A stretch of DNA of 61,935 nt, taken from positions 1-61,935 of the forward strand of contig LFSH01000053.1 of the NCBI GenBank assembly GCA_001513105.1, given 5' to 3'. Both the position numbers and the translations under genes were made by a program. The notes below the pieces were generated by a model. The model saw only the letters and a program-made list of their open reading frames with translations. It did not search any database and was not told the origin of the DNA. Source of the stretch: Clostridiales bacterium DTU070 (lineage in GTDB: Bacteria; Bacillota; Clostridia; DSM-8532). Shown here piece after piece: positions 41,169 to 52,077 of the stretch (position 1 is its first letter; every line of letters begins with the position of its first letter).

Positions 41169-41261
41169 AGTAATCGTTTGAAATTTTCGAATGTTAATAA
41201 AATGTAATACAAAATTTTAGAAAATATTATAAAATCCTTTGATATAACTGCTCGTTTATTG

Positions 41262-41290
41262 TTGAAACCGGTGATTCCTTATGCTATTAT
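41262..41290 (+). promoter_or_regulatory. Promoter for the PP2C-LysM gene
   Basis: TTGAAA (41262-41267), 17-bp spacer, TATTAT (41285-41290). Confidence 0.5.
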
Positions 41291-41333
41291 AATTAGGGAA
41301 AATCTAAACTTGTCGAAAGAAGGAAAATTCCAA

Positions 41334-42650
41334 ATGAGTGATTTGTTGAAAGTAAATGCCTGCGTATACTCGCGAAAAGGATATGAACGGGAACAGAACC
41401 GCGATGACTTTTACATGAACGGTAAATTTTTGTCCGAGCATCATATAGACAATATGGAAGCATCAATTGAGAACCGGGCTGAGGAATTCTTTTTTGCTGT
41501 TGCTGATCATATGGAATTTTCTGATGATGAGCAAAAGGCTGATTTCTCAATTCTCAGGGAAATTGGCAAGTTCCATGAAAAAATAACCGTTCAGGACGGT
41601 GACATTGACTATAAAACAAGGGAGCTCACCGCAAGGGTTACCGAAACCGTAAAATATCTTCGAAGTTTTCATGATATAAATGACATACCCGATGATGCGC
41701 CTGAGAGGCAAATGGGTTTTGCAGGGCTTTTGCTTACCGGTGGCAAAGCTATAGCTGCTACATATGGTACAGGCCATATTTTCTACTGCAGTGGTGATGA
41801 TTTCAAACACCTGACTCCGGGGTATACAAAGGAGGAATGGCAGGGTGAACTTGATCATATAACCGATGAAGAGGAAGAACAGGAAGAGGAGAGCATTGAG
41901 ACAGACAATCGGACTGCTGTATTCAGTACCGAACCTATAGAATTGTTTGAAGGAGATAAGTTCCTGCTGTTAAGTGACGGTGTTTACAATGCTCTTGGCG
42001 AAGAATTTATTGAAGACATCCTGTCAATGCGGAGCGACAGCACTTATATTGCCTACCGCCTGGTAACCGAGGCTATGAAAAGGGACAGCAGCGACGACAT
42101 GACTGCGATGGTCATAGGTATTGAAAGAATCAAGTCTCCGACAGGCTCTGCGAGGAAACCGGCAGTTAAACCAAAGACTTCGGCATTAAAGAACGTGCCT
42201 CCGCCGACTTATAAACACAAGAAGAGAAACGTCAGGAAGTATGAAAATATCATATACTATGTATCAGTGTTCATGACAGCGGTTCTTATCATCCTGATTC
42301 TGTTTTATGTAATCAGGGGTATGATGAGGAACCTGACTGAAAACCTTGGAGATGGTGATCTTGCATTGAATCCCACGCCAATTGCTACGTTATCACCTAC
42401 ACCAACACCCGAGGTAACACCCGAGCCGACACCTGAACCCACGCCTACAGAGGCGGCCGCGGCAGAAGTAATTGAACACACCGTTCAAAGAGGAGAAACC
42501 TTGTCGTCAATAGCAAGGAAGTACTACGGAAGCGATGCTTATTACGAAAAATTAGGCAAGTACAACAACATTCCTGCACCTTACAATACCATTTCCATAG
42601 ATCAGAAGATAAAGATTCCGCCGCTGGAGGAATTGCTTAAAGTTGAATAG
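41334..42650 (+). CDS. Membrane PP2C-like phosphatase with extracellular LysM domain
   Basis: The 438-residue protein has a cytoplasmic PP2C-like domain (about 1-260), a basic linker, one membrane helix (about 305-328: YVSVFMTAVLIILILFYVI), a Pro/Thr/Glu-rich spacer (TPTPEVTPEPTPEPTPTE) and a C-terminal LysM (about 381-432: HTVQRGETLSSIARKYYGSD). PP2C motifs LLSDGVYNAL and SDDMTAMVIG are present, but the usual first-metal motif ADGMGG is ADHME here: the Asp stays and the Gly is lost. It may be an altered or weak phosphatase. I infer it couples cell-wall contact to protein dephosphorylation, a mirror image of PASTA kinases. ATG 41334 follows AAGAAGGA. It is monocistronic. Confidence 0.75.
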   Translation: MSDLLKVNACVYSRKGYEREQNRDDFYMNGKFLSEHHIDNMEASIENRAEEFFFAVADHMEFSDDEQKADFSILREIGKFHEKITVQDGDIDYKTRELTARVTETVKYLRSFHDINDIPDDAPERQMGFAGLLLTGGKAIAATYGTGHIFYCSGDDFKHLTPGYTKEEWQGELDHITDEEEEQEEESIETDNRTAVFSTEPIELFEGDKFLLLSDGVYNALGEEFIEDILSMRSDSTYIAYRLVTEAMKRDSSDDMTAMVIGIERIKSPTGSARKPAVKPKTSALKNVPPPTYKHKKRNVRKYENIIYYVSVFMTAVLIILILFYVIRGMMRNLTENLGDGDLALNPTPIATLSPTPTPEVTPEPTPEPTPTEAAAAEVIEHTVQRGETLSSIARKYYGSDAYYEKLGKYNNIPAPYNTISIDQKIKIPPLEELLKVE

Positions 42651-46382: not shown

Positions 46383-46797
46383 AATTATCCTCCGCATGTT
46401 AACGCATTTATTCCAATTTTAGGCTGGTAATCAGCATTTGATTGTTTTTTTGTCTTAACGATTCATACCATTATGCAATTCATGAAATGATAACAGCCTG
46501 TTAATGTCAAAATACCTTCTTTTGACATTATACCCTAAATTCCTGCACAGTCAATTTATTAAAACCCCGAACCCGGACAGGGATGATAAGCAAAGGCATT
46601 TTCAGGTTGCACTTTATAATAAGTTTGGAGTATAATTAGTTTTAATGGCCGGATAATTCCGGCACGGAAATTTATTGTCCTGCCGAAGCAATTTGGGGTA
46701 TATTATAATGTAGTATCCCTTTTAGCCGGCTGAAAACATCACATTGATTATAAAACTTTCGGGAACTGATATTTTAATTCTCGGGGAGGAATATGAG
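46383..46797. other. Intergenic region with a plus-strand promoter
   Basis: No gene seen. TTGCAC (46607-46612), 18-bp spacer and TATAAT (46631-46636) form a good promoter toward the DUF1858 gene; a second TATAAT at 46704-46709 may be another start. The AT-rich stretch 46383-46560 would hold the promoter of the divergent DUF3795 gene. Confidence 0.5.
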
Positions 46798-47004
46798 ATG
46801 GCGAAAGTAACAGGAGATATGATTATCAGGGATGTGCTTATGCTTGACGAAGGCACGGCGCCGATTTTCATGAAGCACGGAATGCATTGCCTGTTTTGTC
46901 CGTCTGCTTCAGGAGAAAGCATTAAGGACGCATGCGCTGTGCATGGCATAGATCCGGAAAAACTCGTGAATGAGCTGAACGAGTATCTCAGCAGCAAGCA
47001 ATAA
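46798..47004 (+). CDS. DUF1858 domain protein
   Basis: The 68-residue protein matches the DUF1858 pattern: ITGDMIIRDVL-like start, GTAPIFMKHGMHCLFCPSA with a CxxC pair and SGESIKDACAVHGIDPEKLV. DUF1858 modules occur alone or fused to ScdA/RIC-like and hydrid-cluster or Fe-S proteins, which suggests redox or iron-sulfur roles. GGGGAGG precedes ATG 46798. It has its own terminator at 47017, so it is a separate unit from the hydrogenase-like operon just downstream. Confidence 0.85.
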   Translation: MAKVTGDMIIRDVLMLDEGTAPIFMKHGMHCLFCPSASGESIKDACAVHGIDPEKLVNELNEYLSSKQ

Positions 47005-47016
47005 GCAAAAAACAGA

Positions 47017-47041
47017 AACCGCCGTACCCGGCGGTTTTTTA
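47017..47041 (+). terminator. Terminator of the DUF1858 gene
   Basis: AACCGCCG/CGGCGGTT stem, TACC loop, T-run. Confidence 0.85.
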
Positions 47042-47132
47042 TTAGCTTTAGGTTCAGCATGCATCCAAAACTGATTGACGCCTTTTTACAGTAAGTCTAT
47101 AATAGAAGTACTGACTACAGACGAGGTGTTGT

Positions 47133-47489
47133 ATGGAAGTAAAGCAAATTAAAGAGTTGATTACAGGCGAGGTTCATACATGTGCCGACAGGATGGATAT
47201 CGTCATTAAATCAGCGTGCGGTGCGGATTTGATGAGTGATGTCATGGCTTTTTCGAAGGAGAACGCCATGCTCCTTACAGGTCTTGTAAATCCACAGGTT
47301 ATACGCACTGCAGAGATGATGGACATCCAGGTGGTCGTGTTTGTACGCGGGAAAAAACCCACGGCTGAAATGTGTGAACTGGCCGAAGAAAAAGGTATTG
47401 TCCTGTTATCAACTGAGTTAACCATGTTTACTGCCTGCGGAATTTTGTATAAAGCCGGAATTGCAGGAAAAGGAAGCGGTTGTGAGTAG
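47133..47489 (+). CDS. DRTGG-domain protein 1 of the sensory hydrogenase operon
   Basis: A 118-residue single-domain protein of the DRTGG type (SDVMAFSKENAMLLTGLVNP, TAEMMDIQVVVFVRGKKPTA, EEKGIVLLSTELTMFTACG). DRTGG domains are ligand- or regulatory domains found next to CBS domains and in phosphotransacetylase-like proteins. In anaerobes, stand-alone copies accompany sensor-type [FeFe]-hydrogenase genes, as here. It is the first gene of the operon; the next gene's GTG start overlaps its last codons. A second, divergent copy lies after the hydrogenase-like gene. Confidence 0.8.
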   Translation: MEVKQIKELITGEVHTCADRMDIVIKSACGADLMSDVMAFSKENAMLLTGLVNPQVIRTAEMMDIQVVVFVRGKKPTAEMCELAEEKGIVLLSTELTMFTACGILYKAGIAGKGSGCE

Positions 47490-47907
47490 TATTATAAAAA
47501 AGGAATATGACATCCCTGCCAACGACTTTTCATTGGCCGGGGAAGCATCAAGCAATGTTCGAAAACTGTTAACCCAGCTGGGTGTATATCCGACAGTTAT
47601 CAAAAGAACTTCCATTGCCATGTACGAAGCCGAATTGAATGTTGTGATTCATGGTAATGGCGGGAAGGCCCGTGTTGAGATTTTTGAGGACAAGATAGAA
47701 ATCCTGGTTTATGACGAAGGACCCGGTATAGAAGATATTGAACTCGCGATGAAGGAAGGGTATTCAACGGCACCCGACTTCATCAGGGAAATGGGGTTCG
47801 GCGCAGGAATGGGCCTTTCAAACATCAAAAAAAACTCAGACAGGTTTGTGCTGGAAAGCGAGCCAAACAAGGGCACAAGGGTTTATATCACCATATACTT
47901 GTATTAG
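47482..47907 (+). CDS. HATPase_c anti-sigma/serine-kinase-like ATP-binding protein
   Basis: The 141-residue protein is a stand-alone GHKL ATPase of RsbW/SpoIIAB type: N-box AMYEAELNVVIHGNGG, G1 box DEGPGIEDIELAM, G2 box GFGAGMGLSNIKK and a final strand EPNKGTRVYI. Such proteins bind or phosphorylate partner proteins. There is no sigma factor or anti-sigma antagonist next door, so the target is open. GTG 47482 has AGGAAG upstream and overlaps the DRTGG stop by eight bases; the [FeFe]-hydrogenase-like gene follows after 15 bases. Confidence 0.85.
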   Translation: MSSIIKKEYDIPANDFSLAGEASSNVRKLLTQLGVYPTVIKRTSIAMYEAELNVVIHGNGGKARVEIFEDKIEILVYDEGPGIEDIELAMKEGYSTAPDFIREMGFGAGMGLSNIKKNSDRFVLESEPNKGTRVYITIYLY

Positions 47908-47922
47908 AGGAAGGTCAGTAAT

Positions 47923-49233
47923 ATGACTAATTACTTCCATTCGGTTACACTTGAGGAGGATAAATGCAGGGGATGTACAAACTGCATCAAGCATTGTCCC
48001 ACCGAAGCGATACGGGTCAGAAACGGTAAGGCTACCATTATAAAAGAGCGGTGCATAGACTGCGGCGAGTGCATCAGGGTATGTCCGTACCATGCCAAAA
48101 AAGCAGTAACCGATCCCATATCTGAATTATCGAAATACCCAGTAAAAGTGGCATTACCTGCACCGTCGCTGTATGGGCAGTTTGGCCAGGATATTTCACG
48201 GGAAAGAATTCTGAAGGGTTTGCTGGAACTTGGCTTTGACTGGGTTTTTGAAGTGGCGAAGGCTGCAGAGATAGTTTCAGATGCAACAAGGCGGATAATC
48301 GGGGCAGGTAACGTAAAAAAACCGGTTATATCTTCGGCGTGCCCGGCTGTTGTCCGTTTAGTCCAGGTAAGATTCCCCAACCTGATAAACAACCTTCTGA
48401 AAATTGAATCCCCGATGGAAGTGGCTGCAAGAATTGCAAAGCAGACAATTACTGAAAGGGAGAACATTCCGGCCGAAGAAATAGGGATATTCTTTATATC
48501 CCCATGTGCTGCAAAGGTTACAAGCGTGAAGGCGCCCTACGAGAAAAAGGAATCATTTGTAAACGGCGTTCTTTCAATGAAGGATATACATATTAAGCTT
48601 CTTGAGAAAATCAAAAGCATACCCTGGGATTTTGACGGTGATCTTGTATCCTCGGGTGCGTACGGCGTAGGATGGGCTGGTTCGGGAGGAGAGTGCAGTG
48701 CCCTTGAAACCCCCAGGACACTTGCTGTTCACGGTATTCATAATGTTATAAATATATTCGAGGAAATAGTTGAGGACAGGCTCAAAAATGTGGATTTTGT
48801 GGAGGCTTTGTCCTGCACCGAAGGCTGCCTTGGCGGGCCTTTGACCGTTGTAAACCCCTTTGTCGCGAGTACAAACCTGAAGTGGCAGGTTAACAGGGCA
48901 AAGGAAAGGGATTTTTCCGGGGAAAACACAGCGGCGGATTACCAGGACTTGCTTTGGACAAAGGATATGGAGTATAAACCCATATTGAAACTTGACGACA
49001 ACATGATGAAAGCAATGATAAAAATGCAGAAGCTGGAGGAGATTAATGACGGGCTTCCGGGTCTTGACTGCGGTGCCTGCGGCTCGCCGAGCTGCCGTGC
49101 TCTTGCCGAGGATATCGTAAGAGGGTTGGCATTTGAGACCGATTGCATATTCAAACTCAGGGAAAAGGTATCGGATCTGGCAGATCATATGAAGGCGTTT
49201 GAACACATTTACAGGCAGAAAACAGAGGATTAG
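47923..49233 (+). CDS. [FeFe]-hydrogenase-like sensory protein with two ferredoxin clusters
   Basis: The 436-residue protein has two N-terminal 4Fe-4S motifs (Cys15-18-21-25 and Cys44-47-50-54), the hydrogenase large-subunit domain and a C-terminal Fe-S motif LDCGACGSPSCRALAEDI (about 379-396). The H-cluster motifs deviate: L1 is SSACP (near 136-140) where catalytic enzymes have TSCCP, so the H-cluster cysteine ligand remains but the proton-relay cysteine is Ala. L2 is SPCAAKVTS, keeping Cys and Lys but losing Met and Glu. L3 is SCTEGCLGGP with both cysteines kept. This pattern and the DRTGG/HATPase/PHP neighbours match putative sensory (group C/D) [FeFe] hydrogenases. A C-terminal PAS domain, usual in HydS, is absent. 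Confidence 0.87.
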   Translation: MTNYFHSVTLEEDKCRGCTNCIKHCPTEAIRVRNGKATIIKERCIDCGECIRVCPYHAKKAVTDPISELSKYPVKVALPAPSLYGQFGQDISRERILKGLLELGFDWVFEVAKAAEIVSDATRRIIGAGNVKKPVISSACPAVVRLVQVRFPNLINNLLKIESPMEVAARIAKQTITERENIPAEEIGIFFISPCAAKVTSVKAPYEKKESFVNGVLSMKDIHIKLLEKIKSIPWDFDGDLVSSGAYGVGWAGSGGECSALETPRTLAVHGIHNVINIFEEIVEDRLKNVDFVEALSCTEGCLGGPLTVVNPFVASTNLKWQVNRAKERDFSGENTAADYQDLLWTKDMEYKPILKLDDNMMKAMIKMQKLEEINDGLPGLDCGACGSPSCRALAEDIVRGLAFETDCIFKLREKVSDLADHMKAFEHIYRQKTED

Positions 49234-49265
49234 CAATATACATACCCAGGGGGAAATAAAACCAA

Positions 49266-49616
49266 ATGACGGTTAAAGATTTTGTGCAACACTGCGGATA
49301 CAGAATATTAAGCTGTGCTGACAGGGCCGATAAAACCGAGATTACAGGGGTTTATGTCTGTGACCTGTTAAGCATGGCGATGGCGCGTGTTAAGGACGGC
49401 GAACTGTGGGTTACCGTGCATACAAATATCAATATTGTGGCTGTGGCGTGCCTTACCAATGCCAGCTGTGTTGTTATTCCCGAGAATATTGAGGTAGAGG
49501 AGCAGACAGTCAATAAAGCCGCTGAAAAAGGGGTTATTATAGTTCAGTCCCCGCATACAAGTTATGAAATCTGCATAAATTATCATCTGAAAAAATCGGA
49601 GTCGGGAAATGGTTAA
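49266..49616 (+). CDS. DRTGG-domain protein 2 of the sensory hydrogenase operon
   Basis: A 116-residue paralogue of the first DRTGG protein (CDLLSMAMARVKDGELWVTV, NIVAVACLTNASCVVIPENI, AEKGVIIVQSPHTSYEI). It begins about 30 bases after the hydrogenase-like gene and its last eight bases overlap the start of the PHP gene, indicating translational coupling. Its partner or ligand is unknown. Confidence 0.8.
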   Translation: MTVKDFVQHCGYRILSCADRADKTEITGVYVCDLLSMAMARVKDGELWVTVHTNINIVAVACLTNASCVVIPENIEVEEQTVNKAAEKGVIIVQSPHTSYEICINYHLKKSESGNG

Positions 49617-50322
49617 AGCGGCGGTGGATTTGCATATTCATTCCTGCCTTTCCCCCTGTGCAAGCGATGACATGACACCCAACAACATTGTCATGATGTC
49701 GAAAATTAAGGGGCTTGATATAATATCGGTCTGCGATCACAACCATACCGGAAACCTTGAAGCCGTATCAAAAGCTGCTGATGAAGCCGGTATTTTATTA
49801 TTGCCCGGTCTCGAGCTGGAAACCAGTGAAGAAATCCATCTTCTGTGTTATTTTCCGTCGCTGGAAAGTATTTTCAACATGCAGTCGGTTTTAAACAACT
49901 ACTATCTGAACATAGAGAACAGGGAGGACATTTTCGGCCCGCAATGGATTATGGATGCATCCGACAGGCCTGTAAGAAAAGTTGAGCACCTTCTGACAAC
50001 AGCAACGAAACTTGACCTGTACAGCTGTGTTTCGCTGGTTCGTGAGATTGGGGGTGTTCCGGTCCCGGCCCATGTAGACAGAAGTTCCTACAGTATTATC
50101 TCAAACCTTGGCTCAATACCCGGCGACTTGCGCTTTAACACGCTGGAGCTGTCCAGGGGTGTTTCAAAAGAGGATTTTTTAAAGAAATATCCCGAATATG
50201 CCGACAGGTTCTTTATATCATCATCCGATGCCCACGATCTTGGCATGATTCTTGAAAGAGAATGGTTTATTGAACTGGAAAAATTAAGTATAATGGATAT
50301 ACTGGAAAAGCTGAGAGGCTGA
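49609..50322 (+). CDS. PHP-domain phosphoesterase of the sensory hydrogenase operon
   Basis: The 237-residue PHP protein carries DLHIHSCLSPCASDDM at the N-terminus, VCDHNHTGNLEA, LPGLELETSEEIHLLCYFP, VPAHVDR and ISSSDAHDLG near the end, i.e. the His/Asp/Glu metal ligands of the family. Similar PHP proteins (TrpH-like) are exonucleases or small phosphoesterases. PHP genes recur in sensory [FeFe]-hydrogenase operons, but their substrate there is unknown. It is the last gene of the operon; pyrK starts 34 bases later. Confidence 0.85.
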   Translation: MVKAAVDLHIHSCLSPCASDDMTPNNIVMMSKIKGLDIISVCDHNHTGNLEAVSKAADEAGILLLPGLELETSEEIHLLCYFPSLESIFNMQSVLNNYYLNIENREDIFGPQWIMDASDRPVRKVEHLLTTATKLDLYSCVSLVREIGGVPVPAHVDRSSYSIISNLGSIPGDLRFNTLELSRGVSKEDFLKKYPEYADRFFISSSDAHDLGMILEREWFIELEKLSIMDILEKLRG

Positions 50323-50356: not shown

Positions 50357-51130
50357 ATGAATTTTGATGTTGTTATTGAAAAAACAGAAAAACTTGCGGA
50401 GAATATTTATTTCCTGAGATTGAGATCCGAACGCATTTCAGCGGAAGCAGTCCCGGGGCAGTTTGTCAACATAAAGTGCCACGACGGGCTGGATGCGTTC
50501 TTAAGACGGCCCATAAGCATTATGCGGGCAAATCCCGCCGAAAAAACCTTTGACATTGTTTATATGGTCAGGGGTAAGGGCACAAGGATATTGTCCTGCC
50601 TTGAATGCGGGGACACGGCAGACTGCGTGGGCCCTTTGGGCAGGGGATTTACTCTCCCCGAAAAGGGAGAGAGAATCTGCGTTATCGGCGGAGGTATAGG
50701 AGTTTTCCCGCTGCTGTTTTTGCTTGAACGAAGCAAAGATGTGCATAAAACCGCTTTTTTGGGATTCAGGACAAGGGACATGATAGTATTGCAAAAGGAT
50801 TTTGAAAAGGTTTCGGACAGGCTCGTTATATCCACCGATGACGGCAGTTTCGGTCATAAAGGGCTTATTACGAATCCTTTTATCGAGTATCTTCAAACCG
50901 AAAAACCCGATCGGGTTTACACCTGCGGCCCGCTGCCGATGATGAAAGCGGTGGCTGAAGCCTGCATTGAAAGAAACATATTCTGCGAAGTTTCAATGGA
51001 GCAGCGGATGGGCTGCGGCATAGGGGCCTGCCTTGTATGCGTATGCAAGGTAAGGCATAATGATGACTTCGGGTATGAACGCATATGCAGGGACGGCCCT
51101 GTTTTCAGCGCCGAAAAAATCATTTTCTGA
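50357..51130 (+). CDS. pyrK: Dihydroorotate dehydrogenase electron transfer subunit
   Basis: The 257-residue FAD/[2Fe-2S] subunit passes electrons from dihydroorotate to NAD+. The FAD domain has FLRRPISIMRAN, the NAD domain GPLGRGF and VIGGGIGVFPLLFLLE with YTCGPLPMMKAVAE; the C-terminal 2Fe-2S motif is MGCGIGACLVCVCKV with a later Cys in ERICRDGPVF. GGAGG precedes ATG 50357. It forms an operon with pyrD. pyrK-pyrD is the class 1B arrangement typical of Firmicutes. Confidence 0.95.
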   Translation: MNFDVVIEKTEKLAENIYFLRLRSERISAEAVPGQFVNIKCHDGLDAFLRRPISIMRANPAEKTFDIVYMVRGKGTRILSCLECGDTADCVGPLGRGFTLPEKGERICVIGGGIGVFPLLFLLERSKDVHKTAFLGFRTRDMIVLQKDFEKVSDRLVISTDDGSFGHKGLITNPFIEYLQTEKPDRVYTCGPLPMMKAVAEACIERNIFCEVSMEQRMGCGIGACLVCVCKVRHNDDFGYERICRDGPVFSAEKIIF

Positions 51131-51171
51131 AATATTTATTACTGAAGAATGATTTCAGGGAGGATATGATC

Positions 51172-52077
51172 TTGGACTTGTCTGTCAATATAGCCGGATT
51201 GAAACTTAAAAACCCGATAATTGCCGCGTCAGGCACCTTCGGCTTTGGAAGGGAATTCAGTGAATTCTTTGATTTAAACCTTATGGGCGGTATTTCGGTA
51301 AAAGGCCTTACTTTGAACCCGAGGAAAGGTAACGCTCCGCCAAGGATTGCCGAGACCCCTGCAGGAATCCTTAACAGTGTCGGGCTTCAGAATCCCGGAG
51401 TTCATGCCTTTATCCGGGACGAGATACCTTTTCTTAGAAGGTTTGACACGGCCATAATCGCAAACATTGCAGGCAACACCGTTGACGACTACTGCAGGAT
51501 TGCTGAAATCCTGTCCGATGCCGATATCGATGCGATCGAGCTTAATGTTTCGTGCCCTAATGTCAAAGAGGGCTGCCTCATGTTCGGCAGTACCGCCGAA
51601 GGAATATCGAAAGTTACAGCTGCTGTCAGGAGGGTTTGCAAAAAAACGCTGATTGTAAAACTGTCCCCGAATGTTACGGATATAACCGAGATGGCGAAAG
51701 CGGCTGAAGACTCCGGTGCAGATTCGGTAAGTTTGATTAATACGCTGCTTGGGATGGCAATAGACATAAACACAAAAAAGCCGATACTGGGTAATGTCAT
51801 GGGAGGGCTGTCAGGCCCCGCGGTCAAACCTGTTGCGGTACGCATGGTATACCAGGTGTCAAAAACGGTAAAGATACCTGTGATTGGCATGGGCGGTATC
51901 TCCGGCGCAGAAGATGCGGTTGAATTTCTGCTTGCGGGAGCATCGGCAGTGATGATAGGAACTGCGGGTTTTGTAAATCCCTATGTCTGGGTTGAAACCG
52001 TCGAAGGGCTGAAACGGTATATGGAGCGACACGGCTTTGAAAAAGTCACGGAGCTTACCGGAGCTTTGCTGGATTAG
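51172..52077 (+). CDS. pyrD: Dihydroorotate dehydrogenase B, catalytic subunit
   Basis: The 301-residue FMN TIM barrel oxidises dihydroorotate to orotate. Family segments: IAASGTFGFGREFSEFFDLN, GLQNPGVHAFI, ELNVSCPNVKEG (catalytic Cys in NVSCPN), IVKLSPNVTDI, VMGGLSGPAVKPVA and IPVIGMGGISGAEDAVEFLL. I chose TTG 51172 because GGAGG lies eight bases before it; ATG 51166 is only two bases from that site. It is preceded by pyrK and followed by a histidine phosphatase gene. Confidence 0.95.
   Translation: MDLSVNIAGLKLKNPIIAASGTFGFGREFSEFFDLNLMGGISVKGLTLNPRKGNAPPRIAETPAGILNSVGLQNPGVHAFIRDEIPFLRRFDTAIIANIAGNTVDDYCRIAEILSDADIDAIELNVSCPNVKEGCLMFGSTAEGISKVTAAVRRVCKKTLIVKLSPNVTDITEMAKAAEDSGADSVSLINTLLGMAIDINTKKPILGNVMGGLSGPAVKPVAVRMVYQVSKTVKIPVIGMGGISGAEDAVEFLLAGASAVMIGTAGFVNPYVWVETVEGLKRYMERHGFEKVTELTGALLD

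Follow-up and report, generated by a model that had tools for sequence, protein, structure and literature searches.

A conserved five-gene module around a group D [FeFe]-hydrogenase in Clostridia and a tentative hydrogen-responsive switch acting on its paired DRTGG proteins

The genome of Clostridiales bacterium DTU070 (GTDB lineage Bacteria; Bacillota; Clostridia; DSM-8532) encodes a putative sensory [FeFe]-hydrogenase, HydS, in a five-gene module with two DRTGG proteins, a SpoIIAB/RsbW-like ATPase, and a PHP-family predicted phosphoesterase. The module lies within a stretch of 61,935 nucleotides (nt), hereafter the window (assembly GCA_001513105.1, contig LFSH01000053.1, positions 1 to 61,935 of the forward strand). 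A preliminary description, made from the letters of the window, had placed a DRTGG-HATPase-hydrogenase-DRTGG-PHP series at 47133-50322, and we confirmed all five open reading frames (ORFs) on the + strand. Two findings are firm, namely that the hydrogenase belongs to group D (M2e), the class of TamHydS from Thermoanaerobacter mathranii, and that the module is conserved across relatives. We further propose that the module as a whole acts as a kinase/phosphatase switch that responds to H2 and targets the DRTGG pair, a tentative reading to which we assign a probability of roughly 0.4 and whose output we infer. More specifically, HydS would sense H2 or the redox state at its group D H-cluster; reaction with H2 at the H-cluster would change secondary structure, as published work on TamHydS suggests; and the signal would then be handed to the adjacent SpoIIAB-like kinase, to which the adjacency of the genes points. 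That kinase may phosphorylate one conserved serine in each of the two DRTGG partners (S35 and S36), and the predicted PHP phosphoesterase may reverse this phosphorylation. The usual target would probably be the bifurcating hydrogenase HydABC, through either its activity or its expression.

The class assignment comes from a tree of 46 sequences, comprising 29 group D rows, nine HydA, three group C sequences, a group B-like pair, and three others. All 29 group D rows, including that of the window, fall on one side of a branch with support of 100/100, and all other groups lie outside it. The group labels are our own, with group C called from its C-terminal iron-sulfur (FeS) motif and Pfam confirming PAS for L223 alone; the group D anchor is the protein of T. 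wiegelii (L044), whose residue numbering equals the published TamHydS positions, TamHydS itself being absent from the tree. The tree program warned of long branches between groups C and D, and the grouping of C with D is weak (84/69), with long branches meeting there. A phylogeny of this kind had been suggested as a check on the putative sensory type of the preliminary description, and it places the hydrogenase in group D, apart from groups A and C.

HydS is composed of N-terminal 4Fe-4S motifs, an H-domain, and a C-terminal Cx2Cx4Cx16C FeS domain (Pfam scan and alignment), and the Pfam scan found neither a PAS nor a kinase domain in it, as had been noted before. Fused PAS, the hallmark of group C, was detected by Pfam in the group C comparison sequence L223 and not in window HydS; likewise, the alignment revealed neither of the group A hallmarks in window HydS (the proton-relay Cys of TSCxP and the L2 Glu). 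All 193 aligned group D sequences have the four H-cluster cysteines (C140, C195, C298, and C302 here). At the position of C299 (CpI numbering), window HydS has Ala (A139), which is found in 149 of the 193 group D sequences, and at that of M353 it has Ser (S193), the column being Ser/Thr in 191/193; the E361 (CpI) position is Ser and the M497 position is Leu. Window HydS carries SSACP and PCAAKVTS, and the HydA of the same genome carries TSCSP and MPCTAKKFE. The alignment therefore bears out three observations of the preliminary description: the H-cluster cysteines are kept, TSCCP has become SSACP, and the L2 glutamate is lost.

That the loss of the proton relay and L2 Glu argues for sensing, as had also been claimed, is not borne out in that form. 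SSACP and loss of the group A path are class features (PMC8163306; papers are cited by PMC number, and each is drawn on here in part). Since window HydS belongs to group D, its SSACP and L2 changes are features of its class and are no argument for sensing by themselves. An alternative proton path has been proposed for group D (PMC10407848), and its glutamates are kept: E252 in 187/193 and E289 in 193/193 group D sequences, corresponding here to E257 and E294. Among the group D positions tested, which we took from PMC13104023 and PMC10407848, the sole exception is D265, the end of the proposed path, which is H270 here (window 48730-48732; His in 24/193, Asp in 158/193). All others are kept, including the S249 equivalent (S254) as well as R31, R33, K36, K59, D382, C383, E396, D397, D407, and C408; the C-terminal cluster cysteines are C383, C386, C391, and C408. 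TamHydS shows low-rate catalytic activity (PMC10407848), and low H2 turnover together with H2-induced changes has been published for TamHydS only (PMC13104023, PMC10407848). By analogy with this published work on relatives, HydS likely senses H2 or the redox state. A PF02906 search found only one further [FeFe]-hydrogenase in the genome, HydA, and the maturase HydF is also encoded there.

Conservation of the partners was assessed at 200 group D loci, comprising the window, 80 named loci, 19 loci from the family, and 100 from the phylum. The named loci are the top 80 of 589 confirmed ones and lean to close relatives; to offset this lean, the 19 were drawn from 27 other family genomes with a match, and the 100 from 125 phylum matches besides the window's own. 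Removal of six duplicate HydS left 194 unique loci, those with short flanks were excluded from the counts, and eligibility for the five-gene count required at least 1.5 kb upstream and at least 1.8 kb downstream. Gene models were built from 95 sequences and applied to all 200 loci (they fit those 95 by construction), and conservation alignments excluded sequences shorter than 80% of the median length. We found all five genes in 146 of the 170 eligible unique loci, in identical order and on one strand in 146/146. Gene by gene, the upstream DRTGG protein (DRTGG1) was present in 165/184 eligible loci, the ATPase in 182/187, the downstream DRTGG protein (DRTGG2) in 177/187, and PHP in 160/177. The five-gene arrangement exceeds chance, and the freely varying partners that the preliminary description had named as grounds for doubting its reading were not observed.

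The ATPase has four solved-structure matches, all of them anti-sigma F factor SpoIIAB, and it carries the boxes E-x3-N, DEGPGI, and GFGAGMGL. Residues E55, N59, D84-x-G-x-G-I, and G111-F-G-A-G-x-G-L (alignment row numbering) are conserved at at least 95% in 185 ATPase sequences, and we take these residues of the N, G1, and G2 boxes to have catalytic roles. The RsbW-like ATPase proposed earlier agrees with the PF02518 and PF13581 matches, the SpoIIAB structures, and the kept ATP-site residues. Among NCBIfam models, the SpoIIAB model TIGR01925 scores best (55.7 bits, far below its cut-off of 135), and two RsbW models reach 22.4 and 19.4 bits against cut-offs of 145 and 155. These scores would also suit classical partner switching, in which the ATPase is an anti-sigma factor/kinase gated by HydS and acting on a STAS protein and a sigma factor encoded elsewhere; the genome has three STAS matches, one of which lies on a contig (C69) without a listed sigma or HATPase_c_2 match. 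We consider this quite improbable, as single-sequence searches, which can miss divergent copies, gave a STAS match within 6 kb in 0/194 unique loci and a sigma-factor match in 2/194, and as the conserved DRTGG and PHP partners would be left unexplained.

Both DRTGG proteins are predicted to adopt the DRTGG fold. The AlphaFold2 (AF2) model of DRTGG1 has a predicted local distance difference test (pLDDT) score of 89.6 and matches best, among Protein Data Bank (PDB) entries, the DRTGG protein AF1212 (2ioj, TMq 0.83); that of DRTGG2 has a pLDDT of 97.0 and likewise has DRTGG matches in the PDB. A sequence search of the PDB with DRTGG2 returned mainly designed propeller proteins, which we judged to be chance matches. 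Each protein carries a D-x-x-S motif near a helix start in its AF2 model: D32/S35 of DRTGG1 are conserved at at least 95% of 171 rows and D33/S36 of DRTGG2 at at least 95% of 181 rows, and the motif Ser is present in 29/29 upstream and 31/31 downstream sampled DRTGG rows. Among 30 other DRTGG domains of the phylum, the same column holds 17 letters (and 13 gaps), of which one is Ser, and Asp and Ser occur together in none of the 30. We regard the Ser of the D-x-x-S motif as a candidate phosphosite of the DRTGG proteins, from its pattern of conservation. Several points count against this assignment. The alignment of the 30 external domains is weak, with Thr at four of the 17 letters; confidence in the DRTGG1 model is lower at the motif (mean pLDDT 74 for residues 31-40); and the conserved Asp and Ser could serve as a plain helix cap or in ligand binding. 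Moreover, because no STAS protein was found among the best 50 fold-search matches of the DRTGG models, any likeness to SpoIIAA is an analogy and not structural homology.

The PHP protein scores 45 bits with the NCBIfam TrlF-like model, far below the cut-off of 350, and also scores, again far below cut-off, with a 3',5'-nucleoside bisphosphate phosphatase model. Its T. wiegelii orthologue reaches 35.0 bits on PF02811 (cut-off 26.4). Eight residues (H9, H11, H44, E69, H77, H155, D207, and H209) are conserved at at least 95% of 170 sequences and are presumably metal ligands. An LSPC motif stands where an Asp would follow HxH, an Asp that we take to be a feature of AMP-hydrolysing PHP proteins. 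The PHP scores are also compatible with an allosteric small-molecule module that would dispense with protein phosphorylation, in which a nucleotide would bind to the DRTGG proteins, the signal hydrolysed by PHP would be a nucleotide or phosphoester, the ATPase reports the ATP level, and the redox state of HydS sets the output. The DRTGG models lend themselves to the same view, as they match the regulatory region of the CBS-DRTGG pyrophosphatase (3l2b, 3l31) and HPr kinase/phosphatase; against it, the DRTGG proteins of the module are missing the G-D/N-R stretch of most of the 30 other DRTGG domains. We find this account somewhat unlikely. The preliminary description had suggested ligand sensing by the DRTGG proteins and a phosphoester product for PHP, and we treat both as putative roles.

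The proposed target of the phosphorylation switch, HydABC, was sought around 94 complete modules with long flanks (at least 5 kb upstream and at least 6.5 kb downstream). A HydA match was present within 9 kb in 64 of them (56 downstream, 8 divergent), and HydABC is therefore probably the usual target. Among the remaining 30, pyrK follows the module in nine, and 12 have a second-HATPase match nearby, so some may adjoin part of a Hyd cluster; HydA and pyrK were found together in none of the 94. The T. wiegelii module continues into a Hyd cluster of HydC, a second HATPase, HydD, HydB, and HydA, which makes a ten-gene arrangement. This arrangement is split in the window's genome, because the HydABC half (HydC, the second HATPase of 186 aa, HydD, HydB, and HydA) lies intact on a separate contig, C36 (L103:5772-10798), without a HydS module, and the module of the window precedes pyrK-pyrD. 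Since HydABC is on another contig, the signal would act in trans in this genome. At the genome level (group D at E 1e-70, HydA at E 1e-130), a HydA match was found in 111/120 genomes with group D versus 100/179 without it (Fisher odds 9.7), a comparison whose p-value comes from related, non-independent genomes and is indicative only.

At nine eligible loci, neither DRTGG2 nor PHP is present and no HydB lies nearby (L040, L041, L049, L069, L073, L126, L129, L133, and L134). CheW is near four of these and a response-regulator match near five, one or the other being near 7/9 (CheW was Pfam-checked in L041 and L073); for comparison, among 163 full modules, CheW is near 0 and a response regulator near 4. 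Eight of the nine loci keep the ATPase. Because these exceptions mostly do so, the ATPase appears mostly to track HydS, and DRTGG2 and PHP mostly to track HydABC or the complete module. Two sets of loci speak against this pattern: three with DRTGG2 and HydB but no PHP (L155, L157, and L215), and four eligible ones with HydS-DRTGG2-HydABC that have neither ATPase nor PHP (L170, L180, L184, and L199). Directly downstream of the ATPase-HydS pair in one of the nine (L040:11404-13314), a single protein joins an [FeFe]-hydrogenase H-domain and an FeS domain to an MCP chemotaxis signalling domain (Pfam), and a similar MCP match lies near L129. Separately, in a genome of the same genus (L223:6109-14495), a 905-aa gene that we take to be AdhE-like has as neighbours a PAS-containing group C HydS, a SpoIIE-type phosphatase, and a hydrogenase of group B-like type.

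HydS might instead mainly be a low-rate redox enzyme or a HydABC accessory, with the other genes serving its expression or assembly: TamHydS has low-rate activity and its own proposed group D proton path (PMC10407848), both glutamates are kept here, and group D genomes are enriched for HydA. In the window's genome, however, the module is complete although it stands apart from HydABC, and CheW or a response regulator accompanies 7/9 of the loci lacking DRTGG2, PHP, and nearby HydB. We judge an enzyme or accessory role to be unlikely.

Several observations weigh against the proposed kinase/phosphatase switch on the DRTGG pair. At least one partner is missing from 24 of the 170 eligible loci; L041 keeps DRTGG-HydS without the ATPase; ATPase and PHP are both missing from the four eligible loci that retain HydS-DRTGG2-HydABC (L170, L180, L184, and L199); and around 30 of the 94 long-flank complete modules, no HydA is present within 9 kb. 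Pairwise coevolution across 157 paired loci (Meff 127) gave no protein-specific signal, and the HydS columns A207 and E188 (script numbering) that topped several partners resemble shared ancestry. In addition, the published C-terminal cluster keeps its oxidation state with H2 (PMC13104023). A broader and rather doubtful extension of the switch would be that an anti-sigma-type kinase exchanged its STAS substrates for the paired DRTGG proteins, whose D-x-x-S would be a phosphosite specific to the module, and that PHP took over from PP2C as the phosphatase, forming the hydrogen-gated signalling arm of group D across Clostridia.

The features of the locus are listed in Table 1.

Table 1. Features in and around the HydS module (window coordinates)
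Feature	Position	Strand	Basis
DUF1858/TIGR03980 redox-disulfide protein, upstream separate unit	46744..47004	+	NCBIfam match
Terminator-like stem-loop after DUF1858 gene	47014..47039	+	11-pair stem, then T-rich tail
Promoter-like site TTGACG-17-TATAAT before module	47075..47103	+	11/12 consensus matches
DRTGG protein 1 (upstream)	47133..47489	+	PF07085, 26.2 bits (cut-off 25.2)
SpoIIAB/RsbW-like ATPase or kinase	47482..47907	+	PF02518, 40.0 bits; PF13581, 33.3 bits
HydS, group D (M2e) [FeFe]-hydrogenase	47923..49233	+	PF02906, 113.7 bits; Fer4 motifs; C-terminal PF04060 FeS
DRTGG protein 2 (downstream)	49266..49616	+	PF07085, 28.4 bits (cut-off 25.2)
PHP-family predicted metal-dependent phosphoesterase	49609..50322	+	PF02811, 25.4 bits, just below cut-off 26.4
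pyrK-like dihydroorotate dehydrogenase electron-transfer subunit	50357..51130	+	PF10418; NF000799, 223 bits, below cut-off 314
pyrD, dihydroorotate dehydrogenase	51085..52077	+	NF005574, 439.5 bits (cut-off 269)

From the adjacency of the five genes we infer that they form one operon. The ATPase more likely starts at GTG 47482 than at the listed ORF start, TTG 47461, and from GTG it overlaps the end of DRTGG1 by 8 nt; gaps of 15 nt and 32 nt separate the ATPase from HydS and HydS from DRTGG2, respectively, and the PHP start overlaps DRTGG2 by 8 nt. In a consensus scan, the promoter-like site before the module was the best of 19 (shuffle mean 9.2), and terminator-like sites were not enriched (6 observed versus 6.0 expected from shuffles). 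The same scan found no + strand terminator-like site in the 34-nt gap between PHP and pyrK, and pyrK is probably co-transcribed with the module; it is possible that pyrK has its own promoter, given two weak promoter-like matches (9/12) that flank the gap, at 50276 and 50376. Across loci, pyrK lies downstream in 21/166 eligible loci, chiefly in the window's family, and the DUF1858/TIGR03980 gene lies upstream in 19/180, as a clade-limited neighbour. As listed, the pyrD ORF shares 46 nt with pyrK; because the pyrD model match starts at residue 31, translation of pyrD probably begins downstream of the listed ATG. Further upstream, a few kb before the operon, window 41259-42650 encodes a 463-aa protein with a LysM domain and weak PP2C phosphatase similarity (32.6 bits against a cut-off of 230).

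The hydrogenase type is already known. Window HydS shares with TamHydS the Ala at C299, Ser at M353, Leu at M497, the E252/E289 pair, the C-terminal Cx2Cx4Cx16C cluster, the absence of PAS, and an adjacent histidine-kinase-like ATPase; it differs at D265 and in adjoining pyrK-pyrD instead of HydABC. A histidine-kinase-like ATPase and an "AraC regulator" have been reported beside TamHydS (PMC8163306). We considered and rejected the AraC reading for DRTGG2, in which the Pfam scan found only DRTGG and no AraC helix-turn-helix. With T. wiegelii, in which the gene right after HydS is DRTGG2, standing in for T. mathranii, the published AraC gene is probably DRTGG2, without a DNA-binding domain; "AraC family regulator" is the name of 2/76 DRTGG2 homologues, most of which are unnamed. 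M2e genes paired with bifurcating hydrogenases have been tabulated (PMC3561251) and described for Thermoanaerobacter (PMC3608648), and the position of group D upstream of bifurcating hydrogenases with a nearby kinase or kinase-like ATPase is reported across PMC8163306, PMC13104023, PMC3561251, PMC3492117, PMC11837493, PMC3608648, PMC8924675, and PMC10407848. Group D HydS also stands upstream of HydABC in Thermoanaerobacter, Caldicellulosiruptor, and C. thermocellum. The window shares its five genes and their order with T. wiegelii, and the difference is that the HydC-HATPase-HydD-HydB-HydA set of this genome lies on contig C36 without the sensor half.

The preliminary description had held the signalling route to be undescribed. 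For the neighbouring kinase-like ATPase and the HydABC linkage this was mistaken, both being in print; for the DRTGG pair and PHP as constant partners, no such description was seen among the papers listed by literature searches. The DRTGG of PMC10102598 concerns an unrelated Desulfovibrio gene. Group C HydS/HfsB, which is encoded with the serine phosphatase HfsC in the hfs operon (PMC11837493), is likewise putatively sensory and has a C-terminal FeS domain (L223), and within the SpoIIAB/SpoIIE toolkit its partner is related to SpoIIE. The two classes differ in that group C combines PAS with a phosphatase partner (SpoIIE PF07228 in L223), and group D has no PAS and is accompanied by a kinase-like ATPase, DRTGG proteins, and PHP. 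We also weighed the idea that sensors of groups C and D converge on a single target, and dropped it for want of evidence. The ATPase resembles SpoIIAB/RsbW anti-sigma kinases in its ATP-site boxes and structure matches, and differs from them in its score below the equivalog cut-off and in the STAS-free surroundings described above. The DRTGG proteins share a predicted fold with the domains of CBS-pyrophosphatase and AF1212, yet they are stand-alone, paired around HydS, and carry D-x-x-S, and they lack the usual G-D/N-R stretch.

The TamHydS paper (PMC8163306) leaves group D signal transduction as a question to be answered, and the constant set of four partner proteins, with one serine per DRTGG protein, makes it directly testable. 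If the proposed reading is true, the reported AraC regulator beside TamHydS would be corrected to a probable DRTGG protein without a DNA-binding domain, and the module would be an H2 switch on the bifurcating hydrogenase of fermenting Clostridia, which would matter for H2 and ethanol yield.

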